Assembly (NCBI RefSeq): GCF_947503415.1
Contig: NZ_CANNDS010000001.1
Coordinates: forward strand, 1,708,501-1,772,500
Origin: an uncultured Tateyamaria sp.
GTDB taxonomy: Bacteria; Pseudomonadota; Alphaproteobacteria; Rhodobacterales; Rhodobacteraceae
Direction of reading: 5' to 3'
DNA length: 64,000 nucleotides
Part shown: one piece after another, positions 10,888 through 63,985 of the stretch
How the letters are laid out: each line of letters starts with the position of its first letter
How positions within the stretch are numbered: position 1 is the stretch's first letter
The notes under the pieces: generated by a model
Told to the model about the DNA's origin: nothing
Databases searched by the model: none
What the model saw: only the letters and a program-made list of their open reading frames with translations
Position numbers and translations under genes: made by a program

Positions 10888-12172
10888 GGCGCTTGGTTTA
10901 GCCCTGATGGCGGCCCCGGTCTGGGCCGCCGATCTGCCGTTCGAGGAACCTGTGTTTCCCGCCGTCGATGCCGCACAGGTCGAACTTGGCCAGTTGTTGT
11001 TCTACGACCCGATCCTGTCCGGCTCAAAGACAGTCAGTTGCGCCACGTGCCACCACCCCAAATTCGCCACGGGCGACGGGGTGTCGCTGGGCCTTGGCGA
11101 CGGGGCAAATGGCTTGGGACCGGACCGGGTGGCCGATCCCAAGAACCTGCCGGAACAACGCATCCCCCGCAATGCGCCGCCACTGTTCAACCTTGGGGCC
11201 ACAGAATTCACGGTGTTCTTCCACGATGGCCGGTTGGAGGAGGACGCAACCCGCCCTTCCGGCATCCGCACGCCACTGGGGTCGGAGATGGAGATGGGTT
11301 TTGCCTCTGCATTGTCAGCGCAATCCATGTTCCCGGTGCTGTCGGCGGACGAGATGGCGGGGCATTACAGCGAGAACGACATTTCCCAGGCCGTGCGGCA
11401 GGGCCTGATCACCGGACCCGGTGGCGCGTGGGACAGGCTTTCGCAACGGATCGAGGCGATCCCGGAATATCGCACCCGCTTTGACGACGTGATCGGGGAC
11501 AAACCCATCCACTTCACCGACATTTCCGATGCGGTCGCGGCCTTTCTCGATTTCGAATGGCGCGGCGTGGCCAGCCCCTTTGACCTCTACCTGCGCAACG
11601 GGACTGAAATGGAGCCCGCCGCCATGCGCGGCATGGACCTGTTCTATGGCAAGGCAGGGTGCGCAGACTGCCATGCGGGCCGCTTCCAGACGGATCACGA
11701 CTTCCATGCCATCGCCATGCCGCAGATCGGGCCGGGCAAGGCCGCGCGGTTTGAAAGCCATGCGCAGGATACGGGCCGCATGCGGGTGACGGGCGACGTG
11801 CAGGATGCCTATGCCTTCCGCACTCCGCCCTTGCGCAATGTGGCGCAAACGGCTCCGTACGGACACGGTGGGGCCTATGCCTCGCTCGAAGCGGTGGTGC
11901 GGCATCACCTTGATCCGGTTGCCAGCCTGCGCAGCTACAACATCGGCCAAGCGATCATGCCTGGGTTTGACGCCGCCGACATGCGCGTGCTGAACGATCC
12001 GGCCGAAGTGGACCGCATAGCAGCCGCCAATGACCTTGCGCCGGTCAACCTGAACGACGCCGAAGTGGACGATATCCTCGCCTTTCTGCACGCGCTCACT
12101 GACCCACAAAGCATCCGCGGCGCGCTCGGCATCCCTGCGACCGTGCCAAGTGGATTGCCCGTCGATCAATAA
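10868..12172 (+). CDS. Di-haem cytochrome c peroxidase / MauG-like protein, exported
   Basis: A 434-residue periplasmic protein. A signal peptide (hydrophobic residues about 7-20, cleavage after VWAA) precedes two c-type haem sites: CATCH at 58-62 and CADCH at 265-269. The [16 protein letters not shown] segment and the overall layout fit the CcpA/MauG family, which reduces peroxide or oxidises a protein or small substrate. ATG at 10868 has GGAG at 10860-10863. It overlaps xylA by 20 bases, so it belongs to the xylBA transcript, which is unexpected for a cytosolic isomerase pathway. It converges with the CRTAC1 gene, also coupled to a xylose gene. The substrate is unknown. Confidence 0.88.
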
Positions 12173-12190
12173 GACAATACGCCCTTCAAC

Positions 12191-12265
12191 TTCTTCTGAC
12201 TGAAAATACCACGGGGGTTTGGGGGCAGAGCCCCCATTCGATGAAACGAATCGCGTCGCGCAGCG
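12191..12265 (-). repeat. Complex G/C-rich repeat between convergent genes (copy 1)
   Basis: Read on the minus strand, this contains CGCTGCGCG, ACGCGATTC, an inverted repeat around GAATG, then GGGGGCTCTGCCCCC, AAACCCCC, and an A/T-rich tail GTGGTATTTTC followed by AGAAGAAG. The same order of blocks occurs at 31228-31333 on the plus strand. It fills nearly the whole gap between the convergent peroxidase and CRTAC1 genes. The GGGGG-CTCTG-CCCCC stem followed by T-rich sequence suggests a terminator role. Confidence 0.75.
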
Positions 12266-12274
12266 TCTATTGGA

Positions 12275-13810
12275 TTACCGCTCGATGGACAGAGCCGTGT
12301 TCACATCGACCTTTTGCCAGTCGCCCCACGATCCATGTGGCCCGCGCACGCGAACCGAAACCTTGTCTGTCGCACCTACACCAAAGTGCTGCGGCCCTGC
12401 GACACCCCCTGCATGCCCGCCGCCCACGACGATCTCGCGCGCCTGCACCGTCCGGCCATCATCCACCTCTATCCAATCGCCCACGGCTTGCGTGTTCACG
12501 CCCTGCTGCGTCACGGATACAGAGACCCAATTGCCGGTGGCCTCAGATGCGTTCTGCCACACCTCCAAGGGCGCGCGCCGGTTCACAACGGCCAGATCCA
12601 GCAGCCCATCATTGTTGAAGTCAACCAAGGCCGCCCCTCGGCTGCGGTGCATCGAAGCGACACCAGCCACATCGCCCATTTCGGCAAAGCTGCCGTCAGG
12701 CTGGCCCATCAGCAGGTTGTTGGGGTCTTCCATCGCGTTGCCGGGCATCTGCTGCACATTGCCCTTTGCGATGAAGGCATCGTCGAAGCCGTTGTTGTTC
12801 ACATCCCCAAAGGCGATGTGCCATCCGGTCGAGGGGCGTCCGTCGCCGCCCACATAGGGGCGTTGCGCGGTTGTGCCCATCTCAAACGGCACATCAACAA
12901 AGCCCGGCCCGTCACCCACTTGCTTCATCAAACGCTGATCGCCCATGGAGGACAGGTACACCTCGTCCCGCCCATCCCGGTCCAGATCACGTGCGGCGAT
13001 GCCCATGCCCCAGAGCATGTGGCGTTCCCATCCGTCCTCTTCTGTAAATAGGCGTGGGGTCGGGTCCATGGCCCAAAGCTGTTCCTGACCCTCGCGCACA
13101 TAGTAGTGCCGGTCGTTCGACACCCGCAGATCCGCGCGGCCCATCCGGGACCAGTCCGTAAACAGCATCGACAAGGCGCAATGACCCGGGGCCAGATCGC
13201 TGACGGTATAGATCGCTCCATCCGGCCGCCACAGATGGTTCACATCGCACGCCTCGAACGGGCCTTCGGGATCGCTGCGGTCGACGTAGTGCCCGAAGGC
13301 GAGGGTCGGCGCGGTCTGCCCGGCCTCCCACGTGGCCGAGAATGCGGTGGACCAGTGATCACCGAATTGAAAGGGCATGGCGGTGAAGCCGCAATCGCCA
13401 TCGCCACGCAGGATCACGTCGGGGCCCACGCGCAGCATGACCAGATCAAGCAGGCCATCGTTGTCGATGTCGATCGGGTAGGCACCGGTTGTGCCTGTCA
13501 TGATCAAAGCCTCTGGCGTTACATCGACAAAGGCAACCGTGCCGCCGGGGGCCGAGGTATTCTGCAACAGCATTGCCGGATTGGTGCCGCCTGCGGCCAC
13601 AAGGTCCGTCAGCCCATCGCCATTGCAATCCAACGCGGCCAACCCACCGCCCACAAAATGCTCCCACCCGCCGTCATAAACGTGGGACGGCACGTCCACA
13701 GGAACGAAACGAGGATCGGCGGCAGCGGCCGGGTGCGCCAGACCGAGGAGCACCGCGACGAGGCCCCGCCCTACGTCAGATTTTTGGAAAAATCTGCCAC
13801 GCTCAGGCAT
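12275..13810 (-). CDS. Exported CRTAC1-family FG-GAP/VCBS repeat protein
   Basis: A 511-residue exported protein with a signal peptide (GLVAVLLGLAHPAAAA) and at least five calcium-binding FG-GAP/VCBS-type blades: DCNGDGLTDLV, DIDNDGLLDLV, DLDRDGRDEVY, DVNNNGFDDAF and DFNNDGLLDLAV. The end (LEVWQN...GNWVSVSV...GDWIEVDDGR) resembles the ASPIC/UnbV domain. Beta-propellers of this kind usually mediate binding or assist secreted redox proteins; no enzymatic motif is visible. The ATG at 13810 overlaps the 3' end of xylR by eight bases, so it is co-transcribed with the xylose repressor. An upstream in-frame extension into xylR is rejected because the signal peptide starts at this Met. Confidence 0.85.
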   Translation of the reverse strand: MPERGRFFQKSDVGRGLVAVLLGLAHPAAAADPRFVPVDVPSHVYDGGWEHFVGGGLAALDCNGDGLTDLVAAGGTNPAMLLQNTSAPGGTVAFVDVTPEALIMTGTTGAYPIDIDNDGLLDLVMLRVGPDVILRGDGDCGFTAMPFQFGDHWSTAFSATWEAGQTAPTLAFGHYVDRSDPEGPFEACDVNHLWRPDGAIYTVSDLAPGHCALSMLFTDWSRMGRADLRVSNDRHYYVREGQEQLWAMDPTPRLFTEEDGWERHMLWGMGIAARDLDRDGRDEVYLSSMGDQRLMKQVGDGPGFVDVPFEMGTTAQRPYVGGDGRPSTGWHIAFGDVNNNGFDDAFIAKGNVQQMPGNAMEDPNNLLMGQPDGSFAEMGDVAGVASMHRSRGAALVDFNNDGLLDLAVVNRRAPLEVWQNASEATGNWVSVSVTQQGVNTQAVGDWIEVDDGRTVQAREIVVGGGHAGGVAGPQHFGVGATDKVSVRVRGPHGSWGDWQKVDVNTALSIER

Positions 13811-51250: not shown

Positions 51251-52288
51251 GTGAATCTTAAGGAACTGTCATCTCTGCTTGGTCTTAGCCAGACCACCGT
51301 CAGCCGGGCGCTGAACGGCTATCCGGAGGTGTCGGAAAAGACGCGCGCGCGGGTGGTGAAAGCCGCTCAGGCGCATGCTTACAGCCCGAATACGCGGGCA
51401 CAGGGCCTCGCCACCGGCCATTCCAAGTGTATCGGACACGTGATTTCGGTCAGCGATTCGGCAGAAATGGTGAACCCGATCTTCGGGGATTTCATGGCGG
51501 GCGCGGGCGAAACATACGCGGCACACGGCTATGACATGATGGTCACACGTGTTGGCGCACAGGACGAAGCGGACACTTATCTCAGCCTCAAGGCGCGGGG
51601 CGCTGTCGACGGGGTCGTCGTGCACGCGCCGCGCCGCAACGATTCGCGGCTTGCCCTTTTGGACAAGATTGACCTGCCATACGTGGTGCACGGGCGGTCC
51701 ACCGGTATCAAACGGCCCTATACGTGGCTCGACGTGAACAACACCCGCGCCTTTTCCGAGGCGACCTCGTACCTTGCCAGCCTCGGCCATCGTCGCATCG
51801 CGCTGATCAACGGCCCAGAGACGATGGATTTCGCCATCCGCCGCCGGTCAGGGTACGAATCCTCTTTGCGCTTTGCGGGTCTGCCCATTGATCCGGCATT
51901 GATGAGCACGGGCGAAATGACCGAAGGATATGGCCACGCTCAAGCCAACGCGATGTTGGACATGGACAACCCGCCAACTGCCTTTCTGGCCGCATCGATC
52001 ATCTGTGCAGCCGGTATTCGTCGCGCGCTTGATGAACGGGGGCTGCGACCGGGCAAGGATGTGTCGATCGCGACCTTCGACGACTGCCTCAGCTATTTCG
52101 GCAACGGTGGTGATCAGCCCGTTTTCACGGCTTGGCAATCGTCTGTTCGCTTGGCTGGCGCCGCTGTCGCTCAGATGCTGATCGACCGCATCCAGGCACC
52201 CAATGCGCCGCATATCAATGAGTTGTGGGAGGCCGAGTTCGTCGCAGGCACGTCGACCGGCCCGGCGCCGGACCATTCCAAGGACTGA
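51251..52288 (+). CDS. aglR: LacI-family regulator of alpha-glucoside genes
   Basis: A 345-residue LacI/GalR repressor with a GTG start. The DNA-binding domain MNLKELSSLLGLSQTTVSRALNGYPEVSEKTRARVVKAA is followed by the sugar-binding core (SKCIGHVISVSDSAEMVNPIF; DGVVVHAPRRND; LDVNNTRAF; GHRRIALINGP). It is divergent from aglEFGAK and upstream of the beta-glucosidase gene by two bases, so it probably controls both. Its likely sites are at 51074-51089 and 51223-51239. Confidence 0.93.
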   Translation: MNLKELSSLLGLSQTTVSRALNGYPEVSEKTRARVVKAAQAHAYSPNTRAQGLATGHSKCIGHVISVSDSAEMVNPIFGDFMAGAGETYAAHGYDMMVTRVGAQDEADTYLSLKARGAVDGVVVHAPRRNDSRLALLDKIDLPYVVHGRSTGIKRPYTWLDVNNTRAFSEATSYLASLGHRRIALINGPETMDFAIRRRSGYESSLRFAGLPIDPALMSTGEMTEGYGHAQANAMLDMDNPPTAFLAASIICAAGIRRALDERGLRPGKDVSIATFDDCLSYFGNGGDQPVFTAWQSSVRLAGAAVAQMLIDRIQAPNAPHINELWEAEFVAGTSTGPAPDHSKD

Positions 52289-52290
52289 CC

Positions 52291-53613
52291 ATGTTCACGC
52301 ACAAACGCTCCGATTTCCCCGAAGGTTTCCTGTTCGGGGCAGCCACGTCTGCCTATCAGATCGAAGGCCACGCATATGGTGGCGCAGGCCGCGCCATGTG
52401 GGACGATTTCGCGGCGACACCCGGCAATGTGGTCCGCGCCGAGGATGGCGCGCGCGCCTGTGACCATTACCACCGCTACGAAGCGGACCTCGACCTGCTG
52501 CGTGACGGCGGGTTTGATGCCTACCGCTTTTCCACCAGTTGGGCGCGAGTGATGCCGGATGGGCGGACCGTGAACCCGGAAGGACTGGATTTCTACGACC
52601 GGCTTGTCGACGCAATGCTTGAACGTGGGCTGAAGACTTGCGCCACACTTTATCATTGGGAACTGCCCTCGGCCCTTGCGGATCTTGGCGGCTGGCGCAA
52701 TCGGGACATTGCGGGTTGGTTCGGGGATTTCACCGAAGCCATTATGGGCCGCATTGGTGACCGCACCTATTCCGTTGCCACGATCAATGAATTCTGGTGC
52801 GTGTCGTGGCTCTCCCACTTTTTGGGCCACCACGCGCCCGGCCTGCGCGACATCCGTGCCACAGCCCGCGCCATGCACCATGTCCTGCTGGCGCACGGCA
52901 CCTCCATCGACCGGATGCGTGCGATGGGGATCGACAACCTCGGTGCGGTGTTCAACATGGAATGGTCAACACCTGTTGATGACAGCGCCGAAGCGGCAGA
53001 GGCCGCCGCGTTGCATGACGACTACTACAACCATTTCTTTGTCTCGGGCGCGTTCAAAGGAACATATCCCGAACGTCTGGTCGCAGCCCTCGGGAATCAT
53101 TTCCCCGACGGCTGGCAAGATGACATGGATGCGATCAAAGCCCCACTGGATTGGGCTGGGATCAACTATTACACCCGTTCGATCCTTGCCCCGAATGACG
53201 GCCCGTGGCCGCATCACCATGCCGTCGAAGGACCGTTGGAAAAGACGCAAATGGGGTGGGAGATTTACCCCCAGGGCCTGCACGACTTCCTTGTGCGCAC
53301 AGCCAAGGAATATACTGGCGACCTGCCTCTGTTTGTCACCGAAAACGGCATGTCCAATGCCGATGTGATCGTGAACGGCGCGGTGCAGGACGATGCGCGC
53401 ATCGCCTACTTCCAAAGCCACCTGCAAGCGGTGCGTGACGCCATTGCAAAGGGCGTGCCGCTGAAGGGTTACATGGCCTGGTCGCTGATGGACAATTACG
53501 AATGGGCGCTGGGATATGAAAAACGCTTCGGCATGGTCCATGTCGATTTCGACACTTTGGAGCGGACGCCCAAAGGGTCGTGGCACGCGTTCAAAGAAAT
53601 GCTGACAGAATAA
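52291..53613 (+). CDS. bgl: GH1 beta-glucosidase
   Basis: A 440-residue GH1 enzyme: FPEGFLFGAATSAYQIEG opening, RFSTSWARVMPDG, LYHWELPSALADLGGW, acid/base E167 in TINEFW and nucleophile E351 in FVTENGM, with AWSLMDNYEWALGY near the end. The acid/base motif reads NEF where most GH1 members have NEP. With no signal peptide, it splits beta-glucosides in the cytoplasm. It starts two bases after aglR and shares its transcript. Confidence 0.95.
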   Translation: MFTHKRSDFPEGFLFGAATSAYQIEGHAYGGAGRAMWDDFAATPGNVVRAEDGARACDHYHRYEADLDLLRDGGFDAYRFSTSWARVMPDGRTVNPEGLDFYDRLVDAMLERGLKTCATLYHWELPSALADLGGWRNRDIAGWFGDFTEAIMGRIGDRTYSVATINEFWCVSWLSHFLGHHAPGLRDIRATARAMHHVLLAHGTSIDRMRAMGIDNLGAVFNMEWSTPVDDSAEAAEAAALHDDYYNHFFVSGAFKGTYPERLVAALGNHFPDGWQDDMDAIKAPLDWAGINYYTRSILAPNDGPWPHHHAVEGPLEKTQMGWEIYPQGLHDFLVRTAKEYTGDLPLFVTENGMSNADVIVNGAVQDDARIAYFQSHLQAVRDAIAKGVPLKGYMAWSLMDNYEWALGYEKRFGMVHVDFDTLERTPKGSWHAFKEMLTE

Positions 53614-54127: not shown

Positions 54128-55243
54128 TTACATCCACCGGCGCGGATCAGTAGCCTGTCCAGTGCGCGCACTTTCCTGTGCTGCGATGCCCATCGCCACA
54201 GCTGCCCACCCATCTCCTAGCGTCACCTCGGGAGTGCCTTGACCGCGCACCACCGACACGAATTTCTGATGTTGGTAAAACGTCGAACCGTTATGATCGC
54301 CTGCTTCAAGCAGTGTCGGATCAACCGGGATGTTGTGCACCTCCGGTCCCTGAGGTTTGCGTGGGGAGGTTACCAGCTTGGCAATCGGAGCGGGCCCCAG
54401 ATGTTCCGGCCAGAAGCGACCGGGACCTGGCACAAAGGCTTCGATCTTGCCGGTAGGGCCGACGGCAGACAGTTCCTCCTGATAGGCTGAGCCTTCGGCG
54501 AACATGCACAGCTCCAGCATAGCCCGCGTGCCGTTGTCGAAGTCCACAAGTGCAAAGCCGCTGTCGATGATGTCAGGCACTTCGCCTGCGTAATTTTCGT
54601 TCAGGTGGTTCACGGCCTGCGAGGCCGACGCCATCACCCGCACAGGTTCCGCACCCATTGCAAGCCGCATCAGGTCGAAGAAATGGCAGCACTTTTCGAC
54701 GAATGTGCCGCCCGTGTAGCGGTTGAACCGGTTCCAGTCGCCCACCTTTTCGAGGAAGGGGAAGCGGTGTTCGCGGATGCTGAGTTGCTTGATGCCGCCC
54801 GTGGCCGCATTGGCCTTGGTCAGAAATTCAGAGATCACCGGCATGTACCGGTATTCCATCGCCACCCAAATGGGCGCCGGGTAGGTGTCGCGGAACGCCG
54901 CCAGCTTGGCTGCATCCTGCGGGTCGGTGAACAGCGGCTTTTCGACCAGTAGGGGCAGGGGGCGTATTGCTGCGATCTGCTCCATTTGTGCCGCGTGACA
55001 GAAATTCGGGCTGACGATCAGCAGGCAGTCCAACTCTTCCACCGCCAGCAACTCTGTCACCGATCCGACCCGTTTGGCCGTGGGGGCAATTGCGTTCGAC
55101 AAGGCGGCCATTCCGTCATCGGGTTCAAAGAACGCGGCCACGCTCGCCTGCGGCAAGAGCGCGATATTGCGCATGTGTTCCTGCCCCATCATCCCGCATC
55201 CGATGATGCCATAGCGTACCTGTTCCAAGCGGCTTTCCTTCAC
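54128..55243 (-). CDS. Gfo/Idh/MocA-family NAD(P)-dependent enzyme
   Basis: A 371-residue protein with an N-terminal Rossmann motif (YGIIGCGMMGQEHMRN), the family catalytic EKP at residues 101-103, and GGTFVEKCCHFFDLMRLAMG with H187 and D190. Family members oxidise sugars or, in GH109, GH179 and GH188, break glycosidic bonds with bound NAD. Next to an SmoC-like cluster, it is a candidate for the NAD-dependent sulfoquinovosidase (GH188) step or for a sugar dehydrogenase; no GH31 sulfoquinovosidase is seen. That reading is inference. It overlaps the GntR gene by four bases. Confidence 0.9.
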   Translation of the reverse strand: MKESRLEQVRYGIIGCGMMGQEHMRNIALLPQASVAAFFEPDDGMAALSNAIAPTAKRVGSVTELLAVEELDCLLIVSPNFCHAAQMEQIAAIRPLPLLVEKPLFTDPQDAAKLAAFRDTYPAPIWVAMEYRYMPVISEFLTKANAATGGIKQLSIREHRFPFLEKVGDWNRFNRYTGGTFVEKCCHFFDLMRLAMGAEPVRVMASASQAVNHLNENYAGEVPDIIDSGFALVDFDNGTRAMLELCMFAEGSAYQEELSAVGPTGKIEAFVPGPGRFWPEHLGPAPIAKLVTSPRKPQGPEVHNIPVDPTLLEAGDHNGSTFYQHQKFVSVVRGQGTPEVTLGDGWAAVAMGIAAQESARTGQATDPRRWM

Positions 55244-55950
55244 TTCATTCGTTGCACATAGACAGCCCGGTCGGGGTCATACCATGTGCGGGAAAATTCA
55301 ATGGGGGCCGCAGCATCGGCCCAGCTGAGGCGTTCGATATACCCAACAGTGTCGCCGGGGCGCGGGGCGTAGGCATCAGGCGCCCAGTCCGGTACGGCAC
55401 CAAGCGATACCCGGTCTTCGGCCCGCTGGATCCACAGGCCCAGTTCCTTGCGATAGGTGGCATAGAGGGATTCGGACATGGTTGTCTCAGAGACGATTCC
55501 CGCATCTGCATCCAGCCAAATCTCTTCCACACCGATGATTGTGTCATTCAGTGACCGCAACCGGCGGATGCGTGTGGCCTGTGCTGAAGTGCCGAATTCG
55601 GGCAGGTCAGCGGGCTTGTCCATGAGGTCCACAGACAGAACACGTGCCCGCGGCAACCCGCCTCCCTCCAGCAATTCTAGCCGGAACATCGCATAGACAG
55701 TGCCGGTATCGCCCCCGGCCCGGATATAGTTGCCGGAGCCTTGCACGCTCTCCACCAACCCCTTGTCGCCCATATCCCGCAGGGCCTTGCGCAACGTGCC
55801 GACGCTCACACCCAACTCTGTCGCCATGTCCCGCTCGGGCGGCAAGCGTTCCCCATCCATAAGCCGCCCCGACACGATGTCACGGGTCAGCAATTCGGCG
55901 ATCTGCACGTAGATGGGCAGCGCATGTGGGGAGTGTCGAGCGGTGGTCAC
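55240..55950 (-). CDS. GntR/HutC-family regulator (UTRA domain)
   Basis: A 236-residue regulator with a GTG start. N-terminal winged helix: IAELLTRDIVSGRLMDGERLPPERDMATELGVSVGTLRKALRDMGDKGLVESVQGSGNYI. The UTRA ligand domain follows (RIRRLRSLNDTIIGVEEIWLDADAGI; YATYRKELGLWIQRAEDRVSLG). It is divergent from the monooxygenase operon, 100 bases apart, and probably regulates both sides; the ligand is presumably a sugar or sulfo-sugar. Confidence 0.93.
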   Translation of the reverse strand: MTTARHSPHALPIYVQIAELLTRDIVSGRLMDGERLPPERDMATELGVSVGTLRKALRDMGDKGLVESVQGSGNYIRAGGDTGTVYAMFRLELLEGGGLPRARVLSVDLMDKPADLPEFGTSAQATRIRRLRSLNDTIIGVEEIWLDADAGIVSETTMSESLYATYRKELGLWIQRAEDRVSLGAVPDWAPDAYAPRPGDTVGYIERLSWADAAAPIEFSRTWYDPDRAVYVQRMK

Positions 55951-55989
55951 GTGACGTTAAAACGAGCGTATGTGGAAATTGATACACCA

Positions 55990-56003
55990 TTGATCTACAT
56001 CAA
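55990..56003. promoter_or_regulatory. Perfect FNR/FnrL-type box
   Basis: TTGATCTACATCAA fits TTGAT-N4-ATCAA exactly, within the longer repeat CATTGAT-CTAC-ATCAATG at 55988-56005. It is 47 bases from the monooxygenase start and 39 from the GntR start, suggesting oxygen-dependent control, or a GntR site that happens to match. Confidence 0.65.
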
Positions 56004-56050
56004 TGACAGTGTTACGCAAGTGCCAAGTTAAAGCCATTGAAAGACCAAAG

Positions 56051-57205
56051 ATGACCATCGTCCCCATCACATCCCCAGATCTCGATGCGGCCGAAGTGTC
56101 CTGGTTCTCGGCGTTGTGCTCGGATGACTACCAATTCCTCGGCGTGCCCGATGGCGATCTGCGGTCAAGCTGGGCGCACTGCTCCGACATCGTGAAAGAG
56201 GCTGAGGCACAGGGCTTTCGCAACATTCTCTGCCCCTCGTCCTATCAGGTTGGCCAAGACACATTGTCCTTTGTCGCGGGCTGCGCGCCCATCACGGACA
56301 AGATCAACCTGCTGGCCGCCGTGCGGTGTGGAGAGATGCAACCGATCATGCTCGCCCGCACCATCGCCACGCTGGATCATATGCTTGAGGGGCGGCTGAC
56401 GGTGAACATCATCTCGTCCGATTTCCCCGGAGAGAAAGCTGACAGCAACTACCGCTATCAACGCTCGCGTGAAGTGGTCGAAATCCTGAAACAGGCATGG
56501 ACGCGGGACGAGATCAATTACGAAGGCGAGGTCTACAACTTCAAAGGCCTCACCACCGATCCCGTTCGCCCTTACCAGACAGGCGGGCCGCTTCTGTATT
56601 TCGGTGGCTACAGCCCATCGGCACTGGAGTTGTGCGGCCAACACTGTGACGTTTACCTGATGTGGCCCGAACCGCAGGAAAATCTGGCAGGGCGCATGCG
56701 CGATGTGCACGCCGTGGCCGAGAAATACGACCGCACATTGGATTACGGGCTGCGCGTGCACACGATTGTGCGGGACACCGAGGCCGAAGCCCGCGAATAC
56801 GCCGACTACATCGTGTCGAAGCTCGACGACGAATACGGCCAACTCATCCGCGACCGGGCGCTCGACTCAACGTCGCTGGGCGTCGCCCATCAGGCGAAAG
56901 CCCGCGAACTGGCAGACAAGTTTGGCTATGTCGAACCGAACCTCTGGACGGGCGTAGGCCGGGCGCGGTCAGGCTGCGGTGCGGCGCTTGTCGGCTCCAC
57001 CGATCAGGTGATGAGCAAGATCGAAGAGTACCAGAAAATGGGCATCCGCGCCTTCATCTTCTCGGGCTACCCGCATCTGGACGAAGCAAAACATTTCGGC
57101 GCGCGCGTCATGCCGCACTTGAAAACCTGCTCACTGCCCCATGCTTATGGGCGGGTGCCCGCCGTGGCACCCGCAACCCCACTCGCCGCAGGAGAGCGCC
57201 GCTAA
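56051..57205 (+). CDS. smoC: FMNH2-dependent sulfonate monooxygenase (SsuD/SmoC-like)
   Basis: A 384-residue bacterial-luciferase-like monooxygenase. Segments GLRVHTIVR, NLWTGVGRARSGCGAALVG and FIFSGYPHLDEA align with SsuD; W205, R235, H237, R306, Y340 and H342 correspond to the SsuD sulfonate and oxygen-site residues W196, R226, H228, R297, Y331 and H333. It would desulfonate a sulfonated substrate with FMNH2 and O2, giving an aldehyde and sulfite. Coupled to an AKR and a flavin reductase, it looks like SmoC, the 6-deoxy-6-sulfoglucose (sulfoquinovose) monooxygenase; alkanesulfonates are the alternative. ATG 56051 is chosen; an extension to 56003 overlaps the FNR box. Confidence 0.85.
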   Translation: MTIVPITSPDLDAAEVSWFSALCSDDYQFLGVPDGDLRSSWAHCSDIVKEAEAQGFRNILCPSSYQVGQDTLSFVAGCAPITDKINLLAAVRCGEMQPIMLARTIATLDHMLEGRLTVNIISSDFPGEKADSNYRYQRSREVVEILKQAWTRDEINYEGEVYNFKGLTTDPVRPYQTGGPLLYFGGYSPSALELCGQHCDVYLMWPEPQENLAGRMRDVHAVAEKYDRTLDYGLRVHTIVRDTEAEAREYADYIVSKLDDEYGQLIRDRALDSTSLGVAHQAKARELADKFGYVEPNLWTGVGRARSGCGAALVGSTDQVMSKIEEYQKMGIRAFIFSGYPHLDEAKHFGARVMPHLKTCSLPHAYGRVPAVAPATPLAAGERR

Positions 57206-58095
57206 TGGACCGCGTCCAACTATCCGATACCCTGAACTTCTCGCGCATCGTCTATGGTATGTGGCGTCTGGCCGATGACGCAGACACATCCACCGCGCAT
57301 GTGCAGGCCAAGATCCACGCATGTCTGGACCAAGGCATCACCACCTTTGATCAGGCCGACATCTACGGCGGCTATGTCGCCGAGGCGGTGCTGGGCGAAG
57401 CGCTCAAGGCTGATACAGGCCTGCGCTCCAAGATGGAGATCGTGACCAAGTGCGATATCGTGGCCCCCGTTGGTCGTTACGAAAGCGCGCCAGTCAAGTA
57501 TTACGACACCAGCCGCGCCCACATCATGCAGAGCATCGAAAACTCGCTACGCGATATGGCGATTGATCATATCGACCTTTTGCTGATCCATCGCCCGGAC
57601 CCGTTCATGGATCACAATGAAACGGGGGCCGCACTGGACGAGGCCGTGCAGTCAGGAAAAGTCGGCGCCGTTGGTGTGTCCAACTTTCGGCCCTGGGACT
57701 GGAAACTGCTGCAATCCGGTATGAAAACGCAACTGGTCACCAATCAGATCGAAATCAGCCTCAGTGAAATCAGCCCTTTTACAAATGGCGATTTGGCCTT
57801 CCACCAGCAACACGGGCAGCCGCTCATGGCGTGGTCGCCTTTGGGTGGTGGCAACCTCATGTTTGGTGGTGGGCCTTTGCAGACCTTGATGGTTGAATTG
57901 GCAAATGAACACGGCGTGGACCGCGCCGCTATCGCGACTGCCTTTTTGTTGGCACATCCTGCGCGTATCATTCCGGTCATGGGAACAAACAATCTCGACC
58001 GTATCAAAAATATCGGGGATGCCACGAAGGTGTCGCTCGACCGACCCACATGGTTCCGTCTTTACGAGGCGGCGCTTGGACACGAGGTGGCTTGA
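57205..58095 (+). CDS. smoB: Aldo/keto reductase, SmoB-like
   Basis: A 296-residue aldo/keto reductase. The tetrad is read as D49 and Y54 in FDQADIYGGY, K82 in VTKCDI and H129 in LLLIHRPDP. The end has the usual cofactor stretch (IIPVMGTNNLDRIKN). In sulfo-SMO clusters the AKR SmoB reduces the 6-oxo-glucose left by desulfonation to glucose; this gene has the matching position. Its start shares a base with the monooxygenase stop (TAATG), and its stop shares one with the flavin reductase start. Confidence 0.87.
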   Translation: MDRVQLSDTLNFSRIVYGMWRLADDADTSTAHVQAKIHACLDQGITTFDQADIYGGYVAEAVLGEALKADTGLRSKMEIVTKCDIVAPVGRYESAPVKYYDTSRAHIMQSIENSLRDMAIDHIDLLLIHRPDPFMDHNETGAALDEAVQSGKVGAVGVSNFRPWDWKLLQSGMKTQLVTNQIEISLSEISPFTNGDLAFHQQHGQPLMAWSPLGGGNLMFGGGPLQTLMVELANEHGVDRAAIATAFLLAHPARIIPVMGTNNLDRIKNIGDATKVSLDRPTWFRLYEAALGHEVA

Positions 58096-58604
58096 TGATT
58101 ATGCAAAGCCCGAACCAACCTACAACATTTACCCCCGACGCAGACAGCAGCCGCCAATTGCGCGACGCGTTCGGAAAATTTGCCACCGGTGTCACGGTGA
58201 TCACAGCCCCCAGCGCTGACGGCCCTGTCGCCATCGTTGCAAACAGCTTTTCGTCGGTATCGCTCGACCCGGCCCTGGTGCTGTGGTCCGTCGACCGGGC
58301 CGCGCGGCGCTTTCCGTATTTTGAAATGGCCGATCACTACGCCATCCACGTGCTGGCCGCCGAACAGCACGACGTCTGCAAGCTGGCCGCACGTGACGCG
58401 CATATGCTGCACGACCACGCCCATCACCTTAACGCTGATGGAGTTCCTCTGATTGATCATTGCCTTGCGCGCTTCGAATGTCGCAGGGTGGCGGCACATG
58501 ACGCGGGTGACCACGTCATTGTCGTGGGCCAGGTCCAGCGCACCGAAATGCGTGATGGCCAGCCGCTGACCTTCTTCGCCGGCCAGTTCGGCAGCGTCGA
58601 CTAA
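58095..58604 (+). CDS. smoA: Flavin reductase-like domain protein, SmoA-like
   Basis: A 169-residue flavin reductase of the FMN-binding split-barrel type (LRDAFGKFATGVTVITAPSADG; ANSFSSVSLDPALVLWSVDR; FAVNVLA-like HYAIHVLAAEQ). It supplies FMNH2 to the monooxygenase two genes upstream. Start ATG 58095 overlaps the AKR stop by one base (TGATG). Confidence 0.88.
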   Translation: MIMQSPNQPTTFTPDADSSRQLRDAFGKFATGVTVITAPSADGPVAIVANSFSSVSLDPALVLWSVDRAARRFPYFEMADHYAIHVLAAEQHDVCKLAARDAHMLHDHAHHLNADGVPLIDHCLARFECRRVAAHDAGDHVIVVGQVQRTEMRDGQPLTFFAGQFGSVD

Positions 58605-58692
58605 CGACGTCAAGACCCGCCCGCGGGGTTAAAGCGGAAAATGGGCCACGGTGGGACGAACCGCCGGGCGACCGCAAAGGGAGGGCCCGTTC

Positions 58693-59277
58693 ATGGGTCT
58701 ATTACTGACGGTGCTTGCACCGCTCAGCTGGGTGAATGGCACCCTGCTCAAGATCGGGCGTGCCATCGGCATCGTGGCCATTGCCGCCATGGTCATTGCG
58801 ATCCTGATTCAGGTCGTCGCCCGATATCTGTTCAACAACGCTCTTCCCTGGCCGGACGAGGCTGCGCGGTTCTGCATGTTATGGATGACCGGTCTGATGG
58901 CCCCCACGGCGTTCCGGCGCGGCGGGTTTGTTGCCCTCGACATGATCTCTGGCGTGCTGCCCAAGGCAGTCGCTGCACTCCTGGGTCTGGTCCTTCTGCT
59001 CATTTCGATCTCGATCCTGTTGGTCGCCCTGCCCATTGGTATTTCCGAGGTGACTGGCTTCGGTGGCCGCTTTGCCACAGCGTCGCTTTACCTGCCCACA
59101 TTCGATGGTTGGTTCCGTGTGCCGCGCAGCTGGATGATGCTGTCGTTGCTGGTGGGTGTGGTCCTTCTGCTTATGGTCAATGTCGAACTGATCCTGCGCA
59201 AGCTGGTGGAGTTGATGGGCGGCGGTGACCAACTGCCGGACCTTGATCTTGGCGACATGGCTGCGGGGAGCGAATGA
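58693..59277 (+). CDS. dctQ: TRAP transporter small permease (DctQ)
   Basis: A 194-residue membrane protein with four hydrophobic helices; DctQ signatures include VVARYLFNNALPWPDEAARFCMLWM and RRGGFVALDMI. ATG 58693 follows AAAGGGAGG. It lies 88 bases after smoA on the same strand and is one base from dctM. In a TRAP system it joins the large subunit to drive sodium- or proton-coupled uptake of a carboxylate, sulfonate or similar acid. Confidence 0.9.
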   Translation: MGLLLTVLAPLSWVNGTLLKIGRAIGIVAIAAMVIAILIQVVARYLFNNALPWPDEAARFCMLWMTGLMAPTAFRRGGFVALDMISGVLPKAVAALLGLVLLLISISILLVALPIGISEVTGFGGRFATASLYLPTFDGWFRVPRSWMMLSLLVGVVLLLMVNVELILRKLVELMGGGDQLPDLDLGDMAAGSE

Positions 59278-59278
59278 T

Positions 59279-60751
59279 ATGCTGATCTGGTTCCTTCCGC
59301 TATTTCTGCTGTTCCTGATGATCGGCCTGCCGGTGTTCTTTGGCCTGCTCGCGGCGCCTGGCATTCTGCTGTACCTGAACGGGCAGGAGCGCGACATCAC
59401 GCTGCTTTATCGCAACGTCTACAACGGCATGGACAGCTTCCCATTGATGGCGATCCCGTTCTTCATGCTGGCAGGCGAATTGATGAACAAGGGCGGGATC
59501 ACGATCCGGCTTGTGCAATTCTCCCAAGCCCTCATGGGCCACCTGCGCGGTGGTCTGGCCCAAGTGAATGTCCTGTCATCGATCCTCTTCGCGGGCCTGT
59601 CTGGCTCTGCCGTGGCCGACACCTCCGCGCTGGGCTCCATGCTGGTCCCCGCGATGGAGAAAGAAGGCTACACACGCCGCTACGCCGCCGCGATCACCGC
59701 AGCCTCGTCGGTTATCGGCCCGATCATCCCGCCCTCGGGCATCATGATCATCTACGCCTATGTCATGGGCGAAAGCGTGGCCGCGCTGTTCCTTGCAGGT
59801 ATCGTACCAGGCATCCTTGTCGGCGTTGGCCTCATGGTGATGATCCGCGTGACTGCAGATCGCTACGACCTGCCCGCCGCAAAACGGGTCGAGTTCGATG
59901 GTGTGGAACTGGGCGCTTTGGAAAAATGGGTGAGCTTCGCGCTTGCCCGGCTGAACATTGGGCTCCTGTTCTGGGTCATCGCGCCCCTGCCAGAAACCAC
60001 GGGCTTGCTGACATGGGTCACATTCTTTGCCGCCATTCTCGTCGCCCACGCGCTGATGCTGGCCCTGCGCACGCAAGTCAGCAGTGAATTCCGCACAATC
60101 TGCAAACGCGCCATCGTGCCGCTGCAAACGCCCGTCCTGATCTTGGGCGGTATCTTGGGCGGTGTCTTTACACCAACCGAAGCCGCAGCAGTCGCCGTGG
60201 CCTACGCCGTGTTCGTCGCCTTCTTCGTCCTGCGCACCATGTCGCTTAAGGACCTGCCCGACATCCTCAGCCGCGCGGGCCTCACCTCTGCCGTGGTCCT
60301 GCTGCTGGTCGGCGCAGCGCTCGCGTTCAAAACGGTCGTCTCGCTCAGCTACGCCCCGCAAATCCTCGCGGACTTCATCCTGACACTGTCGGAAAACCCG
60401 CTGGTCCTGCTGTTCCTGATCAACCTGCTGCTGTTCATTGTCGGCATGTTCCTCGACGCAGGCCCGGCGATCATCATCCTCGGGCCCATCCTCGGTCCCA
60501 TCTTCGTCGACCTCGGCGTCGACCCGATTCACTTCGCGATCATCATGAGCGTGAACCTGACCGTGGGGTTGGCCACGCCGCCCATGGGCCTTGTGCTGTT
60601 CGTCGCCGCCGCCGTCAGCCGCGAGAAGGTGGAAACCATCGCCAAGGCAATCCTGCCCTTCCTCGCCATCGAGATCGCGGTGATCTTCCTGATCACCTAC
60701 GTGCCCGCCATTTCCATGACCATTCCCCGTCTCACGGGGTTTGCCAACTAA
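59279..60751 (+). CDS. dctM: TRAP transporter large permease (DctM)
   Basis: A 490-residue permease with about 12 hydrophobic segments. Family text includes GLPVFFGLLAAPGILLYL, DSFPLMAIPFFMLAGELMNKGG, LFAGLSGSAVADTSALGSML, GPIIPPSGIMIIYAY and LLFIVGMFLDAGPAIIILGPIL. It is longer than the usual 430 residues because of a middle segment (KRVEFDGVELGALEKW onward). It is one base from dctQ; dctP starts 32 bases further on. Confidence 0.94.
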   Translation: MLIWFLPLFLLFLMIGLPVFFGLLAAPGILLYLNGQERDITLLYRNVYNGMDSFPLMAIPFFMLAGELMNKGGITIRLVQFSQALMGHLRGGLAQVNVLSSILFAGLSGSAVADTSALGSMLVPAMEKEGYTRRYAAAITAASSVIGPIIPPSGIMIIYAYVMGESVAALFLAGIVPGILVGVGLMVMIRVTADRYDLPAAKRVEFDGVELGALEKWVSFALARLNIGLLFWVIAPLPETTGLLTWVTFFAAILVAHALMLALRTQVSSEFRTICKRAIVPLQTPVLILGGILGGVFTPTEAAAVAVAYAVFVAFFVLRTMSLKDLPDILSRAGLTSAVVLLLVGAALAFKTVVSLSYAPQILADFILTLSENPLVLLFLINLLLFIVGMFLDAGPAIIILGPILGPIFVDLGVDPIHFAIIMSVNLTVGLATPPMGLVLFVAAAVSREKVETIAKAILPFLAIEIAVIFLITYVPAISMTIPRLTGFAN

Positions 60752-60783
60752 CTCAGAGCTTTGAACCGGGAGGACCTACCATA

Positions 60784-61842
60784 ATGCTCAAAACAACCCT
60801 CAAAACCCTGACCGCCGCCGCGCTTGTCGCGGGCTCCGCGATAATGGCACAGGCGCAGGACTACACGATCCGCGCCACCGCCAACTCGAACACCAACGAC
60901 GAAGACTATGACGGCCTCGTCGTGTTCAAGAACTACGTCGAAGCGGCCTCCAACGGTGCCATTGAAGTGGAACTCTTCATCGGTACGCAGCTGTGCTCGA
61001 ACGGCGCGGAATGCCTGCAAGGCGTGGCCGACGGCTCAATCGACGTCTACATCTCCACCTCCGGCGGCGCCTCGGGCATCTTCCCCTACGTGCAGGTGCT
61101 CGATCTGCCGTACCTGATGGCCGATGACCGCATCGCGGAACACGTCCTGTCGGGCGACTTCACCCGCACCATGCGCGACATGGCGCTTGAGGATTCCGGT
61201 GGTGCCATCCGCCTGATGACCATCGGTAACACCGGCGGCTGGCGCAACTTTGCCAACACCCAGCGCCGCGTGGCCGAGCCTGCGGACATGGAAGGCCTGA
61301 AAATCCGCACCGTGGTCGCCGACCTGCCGCAGGAGCTTGTAAAAGCCCTGGGCGCGTCGCCCACCCCGATCCCGTGGCCGGAACTCTTCACCTCGTTCCA
61401 GACCGGCGTGGTTGAAGGATCGAAAAACGGTATCACCGACATCATGGGCATGAAATTCCCGGATGCGGGCCTGCAATACGTCACGCTGGACGGCCACGCC
61501 TACATGGGCGCGCTCTGGTGGATGTCGAACGAGAACTTCCTCGCGATGCCCGAAGATATGCGCCGCGTCGTCGTCGATGGCTTCTATGCGCTGCAACAAG
61601 CGACATTCGCCTCGCCCAAGCGCAAGTCGATCCAGGCTTACGAAGAGTTCGTCGCCGGGGGCGGGGATCTCTATGTGCCGACACCTGAGCAAAAGGCAGC
61701 CTTCGCCGAAGCGTCCACACCGGTCTATGACTGGTTCAAGGAGAACGTGGCCCGTGGTCCCGAAATCTTTGACGCGCTGACATCAGCTGTAGCCGCCGCC
61801 GAAGAAGACGTGAATGCGTCCCGCGCGGCTGATCTGAATTGA
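60784..61842 (+). CDS. dctP: TRAP transporter periplasmic binding protein (DctP)
   Basis: A 352-residue exported binding protein. The signal peptide ends AQAQ (MLKTTLKTLTAAALVAGSAI...), followed by DYTIRATANSNTNDEDYDGL and, in the middle, MEGLKIRTVVADLPQELVKALGASPTPIPWPELFTSFQTGVVEGSKNG, the classic DctP region with the ligand-binding Arg. The operon ends at the terminator 61883-61911. Substrate is unproven; position after the smoCBA-like genes suggests sulfoquinovose or its glyceride. Confidence 0.92.
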   Translation: MLKTTLKTLTAAALVAGSAIMAQAQDYTIRATANSNTNDEDYDGLVVFKNYVEAASNGAIEVELFIGTQLCSNGAECLQGVADGSIDVYISTSGGASGIFPYVQVLDLPYLMADDRIAEHVLSGDFTRTMRDMALEDSGGAIRLMTIGNTGGWRNFANTQRRVAEPADMEGLKIRTVVADLPQELVKALGASPTPIPWPELFTSFQTGVVEGSKNGITDIMGMKFPDAGLQYVTLDGHAYMGALWWMSNENFLAMPEDMRRVVVDGFYALQQATFASPKRKSIQAYEEFVAGGGDLYVPTPEQKAAFAEASTPVYDWFKENVARGPEIFDALTSAVAAAEEDVNASRAADLN

Positions 61843-62221: not shown

Positions 62222-63124
62222 ATGCACGACGTTATCGCTCATAAGACGACGCCGCGGCACGTGTATATGTCGCGTGAACGAAACGGGGTGCCTCTTGTCG
62301 AATTCCGAAGCGGGGACTCGGAAAGGACCATCAAATTCGCCCATTGGCGTGGGCAACTGACAGACGTGCATACAACACCGCGCGATGACTACCATACGAT
62401 CTGCTATCACGAGTCCGGCGCCTCGACCCGTCGCGAAGGGTCAGATGCCGTCCTGACACCGGGCACCGCATTCCTGCAGCCTGCAGAGGATGAGGGCGTG
62501 TTTAACAGTGATGATCTGGTGGACTACATACATGTCTATCTTCCAATCGCGGCTGTAGAAAACCTCGCAGACGAAATCGACACGCGCACGGCCTTATACG
62601 CGGAGGTGCCGGTAGAATTCGGCTGTCGCGATCCTGAGTTGACCCGTACGCTCGCCCAGCACATTTCTGTTATCCGCGAAACACCGACACCTTCGGCAAT
62701 CGAATACGACGAATGGACCATCAACATCGGCATGGCGTTGCTGCGGTACGCGGTCCGGGCTGAAGATGATGCACTGGTCGGGGCTGCCAGATCATCGCTC
62801 ACGCCTCGGCAGATGCGCGATGTCGTCGATTACATAGAACAGTGCATCGCAACGCGGATCACGCTGGCAGACCTTGCGGGACTGAGCGGCATCAGCCAAT
62901 TCCGCTTCATGCGGGCATTCAAGGCCGAAACCGGGTTCAACCCACATCAATACGTCATCCAACGGCGCTTGGCGCGGGCCAAGAGCTATCTCAGGAACAG
63001 CGACCAGACGATTGCGGACATCGCGTATGATGTGGGCTTTTCCAGTCAAGCCCATATGACGGATGTGTTTCGCAAGAAGGTTGGGACCACACCTGCGAAG
63101 TTTCGGCAAATCATGCGCGAATAG
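62222..63124 (+). CDS. AraC-family transcriptional regulator
   Basis: A 300-residue regulator with an N-terminal cupin-like sensory part (HTTPRDDYHTICYHESG; VLTPGTAFLQPAEDE) and C-terminal double helix-turn-helix: VVDYIEQCIATRITLADLAGLSGISQFRFMRAFKAETGFNPHQYVIQRRLARAKSYL and IADIAYDVGFSSQAHMTDVFRKKVGTTPAKFR. ATG 62222 follows AGGA. It lies 97 bases before the ICL/PEPM-family gene on the same strand; its inducer is unknown. Confidence 0.93.
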   Translation: MHDVIAHKTTPRHVYMSRERNGVPLVEFRSGDSERTIKFAHWRGQLTDVHTTPRDDYHTICYHESGASTRREGSDAVLTPGTAFLQPAEDEGVFNSDDLVDYIHVYLPIAAVENLADEIDTRTALYAEVPVEFGCRDPELTRTLAQHISVIRETPTPSAIEYDEWTINIGMALLRYAVRAEDDALVGAARSSLTPRQMRDVVDYIEQCIATRITLADLAGLSGISQFRFMRAFKAETGFNPHQYVIQRRLARAKSYLRNSDQTIADIAYDVGFSSQAHMTDVFRKKVGTTPAKFRQIMRE

Positions 63125-63164
63125 GCTGTCCTTCGGCACGGCAATTCCAGACGAATCCTTGCAC

Positions 63165-63174
63165 CGCATTCCAA
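63165..63174 (+). promoter_or_regulatory. Second copy of CGCATTCCAA
   Basis: Ten bases identical to 62048-62057, found 47 bases upstream of the ICL/PEPM-family gene, in the same orientation. Confidence 0.35.
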
Positions 63175-63220
63175 CCGGCGCAAAGCTGCGGCGAATACTC
63201 CGCGTCCCAAAGGTTCTAAA

Positions 63221-63985
63221 ATGTCCCAAGCTGACAAAGCCGCCGCCTTCGCTGCCCTGCACGTGCCGGGTACACCATTGGTCATCTACAATATCTGGGA
63301 TGCAGGCACCGCCAAGGCCGTGTCGCAAGCCGGAGCCAAAGCCATCGCGACCGGAAGCTGGTCCGTGGCCGAAGCGCAAGGCTATCCGGACGGTGAACAT
63401 ATCCCGCTGGAAGTCCTGTTGCCTATTGCCAAGCGCATCGTGGCCAGTACAGACCTACCCGTCAGCATCGACTTTGAAGGAGGCTATGCCACCGAGCCCG
63501 ATCAGCTCGCCGGGAACATCACGGCCCTGATCGGCACTGGTGCCATCGGCCTCAACTTCGAAGACCAGGTTGTGGGCGGCGACGGTCTCTACCCGCTCGA
63601 CACCCAAGTGACGCGGATCAAGGCTGTGCGTGCCGCCGCCGATGCGGCTGGCGTGCCGCTCTTCATCAACGCACGCACCGACCTGTTTCTCAAATCCAAA
63701 CCGGACGCCCATGCCGACCATATGGCCGAAGCGCTCGACCGCGCCGCCGCCTATGCCGAGGCGGGGGGCAGCGGGTTCTTCATCCCGGGCCTAACCGACC
63801 ACGACATGATCACGCAGGTCTGCGAGGCTGCGTCGCTGCCCGTGAACGTGATGATGCGCGGCAAGCTGTCTTCGGTGTCTCAGGTCGCCGCCCTTGGCGT
63901 GGCCCGCACCAGCTATGGCCCCGGTCCGTTTGCCAACGCCATGACCCAAGCCGCCGAAGGCTTCACCGCAGCGGCCGCTAGTTAA
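63221..63985 (+). CDS. Isocitrate lyase / PEP mutase family protein
   Basis: A 254-residue TIM-barrel protein of the ICL/PEPM superfamily. It shows IYNIWDAGTAKAV, SVAEAQGYPDGE, SIDFEGGYA where classic members have D-A-D-T-G, GLNFEDQV and FINARTDLFL. It lacks the KKCGH motif of isocitrate lyase, so it is not AceA; 2-methylisocitrate-lyase-like, phosphonomutase-like or oxaloacetate-decarboxylase-like activity is possible. ATG 63221 is chosen, with AAAGG upstream. A possible role under the AraC regulator is inferred from position. Confidence 0.88.
   Translation: MSQADKAAAFAALHVPGTPLVIYNIWDAGTAKAVSQAGAKAIATGSWSVAEAQGYPDGEHIPLEVLLPIAKRIVASTDLPVSIDFEGGYATEPDQLAGNITALIGTGAIGLNFEDQVVGGDGLYPLDTQVTRIKAVRAAADAAGVPLFINARTDLFLKSKPDAHADHMAEALDRAAAYAEAGGSGFFIPGLTDHDMITQVCEAASLPVNVMMRGKLSSVSQVAALGVARTSYGPGPFANAMTQAAEGFTAAAAS

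Follow-up and report, generated by a model that had tools for sequence, protein, structure and literature searches.

Gene content of the locus

The window analyzed here, a stretch of 64,000 nucleotides (positions 1708501-1772500 of the contig) from the 4.87-Mb genome of an uncultured Tateyamaria sp., carries a putative cluster for the utilization of sulfoquinovose (SQ) by the sulfoquinovose monooxygenase (sulfo-SMO) pathway, joined to genes of a tripartite ATP-independent periplasmic (TRAP) transporter (Table 1). In a scan of named genomes, the nearest named relatives by SmoC were Tateyamaria strains. A sequence-only reading of positions 54128-61842 had listed overlapping genes for a monooxygenase, an aldo/keto reductase and a flavin reductase followed by dctQMP, and the coordinates and Pfam families agree with this list. 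The smoC/smoB and smoB/smoA pairs each overlap by one base (TAATG and TGATG, gene limits being taken from the sequence itself), all six families (Bac_luciferase, Aldo_ket_red, Flavin_Reduct, DctQ, DctM and DctP) score over the Pfam cut-off, and the P, Q and M subunits of a DctP-type TRAP transporter are all encoded at the locus. The list was incomplete, as it overlooked the GH188 and GntR/UTRA genes lying in the same interval.

Table 1. Features of the locus in window coordinates, and of the downstream pair as numbered in locus L224
Feature	Coordinates	Strand	Basis or remark
GH188 NAD+-dependent sulfoquinovosidase homologue, SqgA-like, Gfo/Idh/MocA fold	54128-55243	-	phmmer; 8/8 SQ-contact residues
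GntR/UTRA transcriptional regulator, probable SQ-responsive repressor (predicted role)	55240-55950	-	Pfam GntR, UTRA
Candidate regulator operator	55977-56003	none	AATTGATAC at 55977-55985; inverted repeat TTGAT-N4-ATCAA at 55990-56003
smoC, predicted FMNH2-dependent sulfoquinovose monooxygenase	56051-57205	+	bits to 7OLF/7OH2; tree
smoB, predicted 6-dehydroglucose (6-oxo-glucose) reductase, aldo/keto reductase	57205-58095	+	phmmer to 7BBY
smoA, predicted flavin reductase supplying FMNH2	58095-58604	+	Pfam Flavin_Reduct 3.1e-33; place after smoB
dctQ, TRAP small permease	58693-59277	+	Pfam DctQ 2e-22
dctM, TRAP large permease	59279-60751	+	Pfam DctM 3e-112; NCBIfam dctM over cut-off
dctP, TRAP solute-binding protein, proposed SQ/SQ-glycoside receptor	60784-61842	+	Pfam DctP 8.8e-50; linkage
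Sel1-repeat protein	L224 10648-11118	-	past window end; pair spans window coordinates about 64648-66426
Di-haem CCP/MauG-family protein	L224 about 11164-12426	+	past window end

SmoCBA, the putative sulfoquinovosidase and the regulator

The smoC product scores 720 bits against the structure 7OLF (E 5e-216; 79% identity over 384 positions) and 711 bits against 7OH2, which we take to be solved SmoCs from Agrobacterium and Rhizobium, whereas the scores against SsuD and MsuD are 184-196 bits. A tree of 85 rows built by a quick method places both solved SmoCs among Rhodobacterales proteins inside an 80-row SmoC clade (Shimodaira-Hasegawa-like approximate likelihood ratio test, SH-aLRT, 97), while SsuD and MsuD stay outside; at 245 bits, the window monooxygenase is below the NCBIfam cut-off of 518 for alkanesulfonate monooxygenase. 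The comparison with SmoC and SsuD and the tree place the protein on the SmoC side, as the sequence-only reading had supposed, and no grouping with alkanesulfonate enzymes is seen. The claim that six sulfonate/oxygen-site residues of SsuD are retained (Trp196, Arg226, His228, Arg297, Tyr331 and His333) also holds, both for the window protein and for 80/80 SmoC rows. A seventh position, presumably belonging to the same site (Cys54), is Val in all 80 rows, the two solved SmoCs included.

If the monooxygenase were of the SsuD/MsuD type and the cluster scavenged sulfur from mixed sulfonates, the shared fold and the six residues would be expected, and 7OLF, the best match in the Protein Data Bank, was in fact named methanesulfonate sulfonatase by its depositors, as 7OH2 was named alkanesulfonate monooxygenase. 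Given the bit scores, the tree and the NCBIfam value, as well as the SmoB and GH188 partners that indicate a sulfo-sugar, we consider this explanation extremely unlikely, and an SsuD, MsuD or other luciferase-like identity was rejected on the first three of these grounds. Judged by sequence comparison, the window monooxygenase is a true SmoC, distinct from SsuD and MsuD.

SmoB has its best phmmer match in 7BBY (412 bits, 9.1e-123), presumably a solved SmoB, with the runner-up, the protein YdhF, at 1.2e-60 and half the bits. The best solved match of the smoA product is 4XHY, a flavin reductase without a named pathway; no structure named SmoA is among the solved matches listed, and the SmoA call follows from the Pfam family and the position of the gene. 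With the orthology of SmoC, the match of SmoB to 7BBY and a flavin reductase in its place, the earlier description of smoCBA as the core of the sulfo-SMO pathway is borne out. SmoA would make FMNH2; orthology to the solved proteins suggests that SmoC would use it to oxidize SQ to sulfite and 6-dehydroglucose and that SmoB would reduce the latter to glucose. As to sulfite disposal, PF00174 has five matches in the host genome, four of them over the cut-off, and none of the five was placed at the smo locus.

Some observations on smoC neighborhoods in other genomes stand apart from this. A gene of the putative sulfate exporter family lies near the smo cluster in five loci (L152, L159, L169, L193 and L196, the last from the laboratory roseobacter Ruegeria sp. 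TM1040; PF03601 in L169) and is a candidate for the export of sulfite or sulfate. In three loci (L142, L171 and L188), smoC lacks at least one of its usual neighbors, SmoB, SmoA, GH188 and GntR, the SmoC of L188 being 85% identical to that of the window. A monooxygenase about 53% identical to SmoC is encoded on a plasmid of Spirosoma oryzicola (L199) beside SusC/SusD, an amidohydrolase, an amino acid permease, a cytochrome c and a sulfite dehydrogenase, which perhaps represents a different sulfonate route.

The absence of a GH31 gene, noted in the sequence-only reading, extends to the whole host genome, where PF01055 has no match. The cluster nevertheless has a sulfoquinovosidase candidate, since a GH188 homologue, not recognized in the sequence-only reading, lies at its upstream end. 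Its product matches 8ZN9 (phmmer, 1.2e-160), FlSqgA (8QC2, 3.3e-101) and ArSqgA (8QC3, 3.5e-100), the latter two being GH188 SqgA structures according to Kaur et al. 2023 (PMC10755693). All eight SQ-contact residues checked, in the ArSqgA numbering taken from that text (Lys107, Tyr136, Arg166, Leu170, Lys172, Glu189, His193 and His321), are identical in the window protein, which is 46.8% identical to the printed ArSqgA segment. Glu163 of the paper could not be placed: the printed segment has Val at 163 and the window protein Arg, the next residue (motif EHR) being Glu in both. The eight contacts are also kept in 104/104 readable smo-linked copies (GH188 being matched in 146 smo loci) and in 18/18 copies linked to the second SQ route described below. 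The likeness to ArSqgA and FlSqgA covers nearly the whole chain, although the partner pathway differs. Homology and the kept residues suggest that the enzyme would cleave SQ glycosides to SQ by the NAD+-dependent GH188 mechanism, with transient oxidation at C3.

The same residues bear on the possibility that the substrate is not SQ but another 6-sulfo-sugar related to it, such as sulfofucose, or glycosides of that sugar. The stereochemistry of the sugar is not fixed with certainty by sequence, and sulfofucose catabolism is known in a Paracoccus (PMC12421959). That system, however, is described there with an ATP-binding cassette (ABC) transporter and a route of the Entner-Doudoroff type, while here SmoC is close to 7OLF and the GH188 residues touching the hydroxyls and the sulfonate of SQ are all kept; we regard this alternative as highly unlikely.

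The gntR gene is divergent from smoC in 80/80 loci of the named-genome sample (the best 80 of 540 relatives) and in 59/61 loci of the genus sample described below. The exact inverted repeat TTGAT-N4-ATCAA occurs in 71 of 143 gntR-smoC spacers, compared with a mean of 0.02 in mononucleotide shuffles, which keep base composition alone while related spacers are counted many times; AATTGATA, on either strand, occurs in 120 of the 143. The GntR protein may act on the divergent promoter through this repeat.

The layout among other genomes was surveyed in several samples. In the named-genome sample, the full GH188-GntR-SmoCBA-DctQMP set is present in 61/80 loci and GH188 in 79/80. The named relatives place the window in the order Rhodobacterales; of 390 genomes drawn evenly from that order, 194 have SmoC, as do 69 of the 139 genera, absence meaning no match at 1e-60. 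The genus sample took the best-matching printed genome from each of 61 genera, leaving out the 8 of the 69 with the weakest matches; the full set is present in 42 of them and GH188 in 60. The TRAP version, which the sequence-only reading had considered a new architecture, is therefore the usual layout in the order. In a sample of the class, SmoC was found in 9 of 385 genomes, five of them outside the family. Among these five loci, L190 and L192 have a full TRAP set (no SmoA was found in L192), L188 has none, and L189 and L191 are interrupted by contig ends. A Rhizobium plasmid shares the layout; the SmoC it encodes falls beside 7OLF and 7OH2 in the tree.

The sulfo-SMO system of Agrobacterium (sulfo-ASMO; SmoA-I) has a GH31 sulfoquinovosidase. 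It shares with the window the SmoC, SmoB and SmoA core and the desulfonation of SQ to sulfite and 6-dehydroglucose and on to glucose, but has an ABC importer (PMC9594981) where the window has DctQMP; the window cluster has GH188 in place of GH31, and a GntR/UTRA regulator. The same clade, SmoCBA and GH188 are shared with the sulfo-SMO clusters of roseobacters treated by Kaur et al. 2023, who call GH188 near-universal in them. The window cluster is an ordinary member of this published family.

The TRAP transporter and two putative sulfoquinovose routes

A DctP orthologue was found in 155 of the 390 genomes, every match having E <=1e-157 despite a limit of 1e-90; 132 of these genomes also have SmoC and 23 do not. 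The distance between dctP and smoC is 4.4-5.1 kb in 100/100 genomes in which both places are known, places being available for 150/194 SmoC and 150/155 DctP genes, hence distances for 100 of the 132.

The survey of smoC-free DctP loci covered 20 of the 23. In 18 of these 20, genes for GH188 (50-54% identical to that of the window), an SQ-isomerase-like protein, a PfkB kinase and a LacD-type aldolase lie beside the TRAP genes; a mutarotase is present in 12 of the stretches and an aldehyde dehydrogenase (>=70% identity) in nine. Counterparts of the isomerase, kinase and aldolase at >40% identity and >60% coverage were absent from all 141 smo loci searched. By family, as checked in one locus (L204, the aldolase of which matches 8TNF at 6.8e-98), these 18 loci read as an Embden-Meyerhof-Parnas type of SQ route (sulfo-EMP-type). 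According to a 2026 review (PMC12890257), hybrid EMP1/2 sets occur in Proteobacteria.

The DctP proteins of the two contexts look alike. None of the alignment positions has differing residues at >80% in the 108 smo-linked and the 18 sulfo-EMP-linked sequences. In a DctP tree of 75 rows thinned from 129, the bootstrap of which had not settled, the context switches five times, at least three of these on well-supported branches, compared with 16.2 switches in shuffles. Arg175, in the motif GLKIRT, is present in 108/108 smo-linked and 20/20 other orthologues; it aligns with 4P47 in a K-I-R motif and, by this motif, presumably takes the position of SiaP Arg147. TRAP receptors mostly take carboxylates, held by a conserved Arg, and rarely a sulfonate or phosphate pairs with it instead (PMC4646407).

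The compounds common to both SQ routes and GH188 are SQ and SQ glycosides. Because the same DctP orthologue occurs with both routes, its ligand is most parsimoniously SQ or its glycoside. The TRAP transporter and GH188 thus probably form a unit for SQ intake that has been combined with two routes, as the linkage suggests, and the part in SQ uptake that the sequence-only reading had given to the TRAP transporter is supported by linkage across genomes. In this arrangement, DctP would bind periplasmic SQ or sulfoquinovosyl glycerol and DctQM would import it; the conserved Arg of DctP would contact the sulfonate in the way that it contacts a carboxylate in other TRAP receptors. The isethionate-binding DctP 8T9T, which by its title has a sulfonate ligand, belongs to the same DctP family and is a family-level match (1.6e-25); its ligand is isethionate, in contrast to the sulfo-sugar proposed for the window protein.

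Several observations weigh against this assignment. The genome counts come from related genomes, which are not independent, and the Fisher values for co-occurrence ignore kinship. No full adjacent TRAP set is present in 19 of the 61 smoC genera (in L158 the contig ends soon after smoC), three of which (L152, L159 and L169; families checked in L169) carry an ABC system in its place. TRAP is therefore not required, and the importer appears to be an interchangeable part of the cluster, TRAP being the common one in Rhodobacterales. On the side of the second route, the L204 isomerase scores 241 bits where the cut-off is 700, its sole NCBIfam match being sulfoquinovose isomerase, and the L204 aldolase is nearer to tagatose-type aldolases (about 1e-41) than to sulfofructose-phosphate aldolase (3e-15). 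In L212 and L219, two of the 20 loci covered, no SQ route is apparent up to about 9 kb away. The structural model of DctP is poor (mean predicted local distance difference test score, pLDDT, of 61, with 36 close homologues) and gave no pocket. The substrate of the transporter could, less probably, be glucose, glycerol or another sulfonate.

The enzymes could accordingly be those of the sulfo-SMO pathway while the TRAP transporter is only co-regulated with them and has a different substrate, for instance one of the products, glycerol or some other organic acid. The preference of TRAP receptors for carboxylates (PMC4646407) and the smoC genera that manage without a full adjacent set fit this explanation. 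It accounts poorly for the presence of the same orthologue and GH188 with two chemically different SQ routes, and for the repeated switches of context in the DctP tree with no diverging residues; the rare pairing of a sulfonate with the conserved Arg also removes part of its appeal. We consider it unlikely. Taking all of this together, the locus is very probably a sulfo-SMO cluster for SQ utilization, with a predicted TRAP and GH188 intake unit whose partner is SmoCBA here and a sulfo-EMP-type route in other genomes.

Liu et al. 2023 (ISME J) reportedly observed growth of roseobacters on SQ and induction of clusters of this kind; the TRAP genes may already be shown in that study. No TRAP importer for SQ was found in the searchable texts among the matches listed, including PMC11659671, PMC12421959 and PMC10507020, supplements and most subscription papers lying outside the search; PMC10507020 has TRAP as a putative sulfolactate importer and sulfoquinovose in the title of a reference. 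The word TRAP is absent from the searchable parts of PMC12890257, PMC13372026 and PMC9594981. The searchable main text of Kaur et al. (PMC10755693) contains none of the words TRAP, transporter, ABC, importer and permease; a supplementary figure may draw such genes. Neither the TRAP transporter as an SQ intake unit common to two routes nor the companion genes described in the next section were found in the searchable texts among the matches listed.

TRAP transport is ion-driven. If the proposed role is true, a main marine gate for the sugar of sulfolipids would be an ion-driven acid transporter and not an ABC importer as in Agrobacterium. SmoC is present in half of the Rhodobacterales draw, and in 132 of the 194 SmoC genomes it is accompanied by one orthologous TRAP system; on the same condition, DctP would mark SQ uptake in metagenomes irrespective of which of the two catabolic routes follows. 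The yearly production of SQ is put at about ten billion tons in PMC10755693.

Two further observations concern DctP: the fetched flanks contain two distant paralogues, and a search for relatives in viral contigs gave 69 pattern matches and no relative.

The Sel1/di-haem pair and other neighbors

Downstream of dctP follow genes for a Sel1-repeat protein, the N terminus of which is signal-like, and for a di-haem protein of the cytochrome c peroxidase (CCP)/MauG family, encoded on the other strand. The two genes are on opposite strands in 94/94 loci having both, and two CxxCH motifs are present in the aligned di-haem core of 97/98 loci. With the homologue from L070 as query, the nearest solved relatives of the di-haem protein are di-haem enzymes, among them bacterial cytochrome c peroxidases and MauG.

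The di-haem gene is present in 48/59 and 28/42 TRAP loci, compared with 0/21 and 1/19 smo loci without TRAP; a looser query finds it in 77 instead of 76 of the 101 TRAP loci. It is also present in 18/20 smoC-free TRAP loci. Since it accompanies TRAP loci of both routes and almost no smo loci lacking TRAP, the pair goes with the transporter and not with the route.

Among the 390 genomes, 126 have a di-haem orthologue (E <=4.4e-158, a cut set after seeing the gap to 2.1e-140), and 123 of the 126 also have the DctP orthologue. The di-haem orthologue is absent from all 62 SmoC genomes that lack DctP and from 32 of the 155 DctP genomes. In 113 of 121 genomes with both genes placed, they are within 10 kb of each other; in the other eight they are apart yet co-occur. 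The three di-haem genomes without a DctP orthologue (L225-L227) show no TRAP, Sel1, SmoC, GH188 or sulfo-EMP-type match nearby, except for a 36% match to the aldehyde dehydrogenase in L227.

The di-haem protein may serve in protection from peroxide, in processing of a periplasmic substrate or in maturation of a partner protein. A more specific proposal, which we put forward tentatively and consider rather doubtful, is that DctQMP and, mostly, the di-haem protein and a secreted Sel1-repeat protein form a portable SQ intake unit of Rhodobacterales, joined several times to SmoCBA or to sulfo-EMP-type genes, in which the di-haem protein would act in a periplasmic step, for instance treating a sulfolipid-derived substrate or maturing the receptor. 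Import of SQ by TRAP would then depend on a periplasmic redox enzyme of a kind that is not known to be linked to sulfosugars. A literature search for TRAP together with cytochrome c peroxidase and MauG gave no match. The role of the linked pair is testable.

Related genes were observed elsewhere. Positions 9580-12172 of the window contain a weak match to the xylose-isomerase-like TIM-barrel family (28.5 bits, below the cut-off), followed by a second CCP/MauG-family gene, the product of which shares about 45% identity with its di-haem counterpart in L204. The family may therefore accompany other sugar loci as well. In L212, the orthologous TRAP set stands without the di-haem pair, SmoC, GH188 or sulfo-EMP-type genes within about 9 kb.

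Between dctP and the Sel1/di-haem pair (window 62222-63985) lie genes for an AraC-type regulator and a protein of the phosphoenolpyruvate (PEP)-mutase family. The latter has homologues in L006, L008 and L009, and the AraC gene was matched in 0/80 loci. Upstream of the smo cluster (window 51251-53613), a LacI gene is paired with a GH1 beta-glucosidase gene. The pair has this upstream place in Tateyamaria and is found downstream and inverted in six other loci (L048, L060, L066, L070, L075 and L076). The smo and LacI/GH1 clusters are thus recurrent neighbors, and both may yield glucose.

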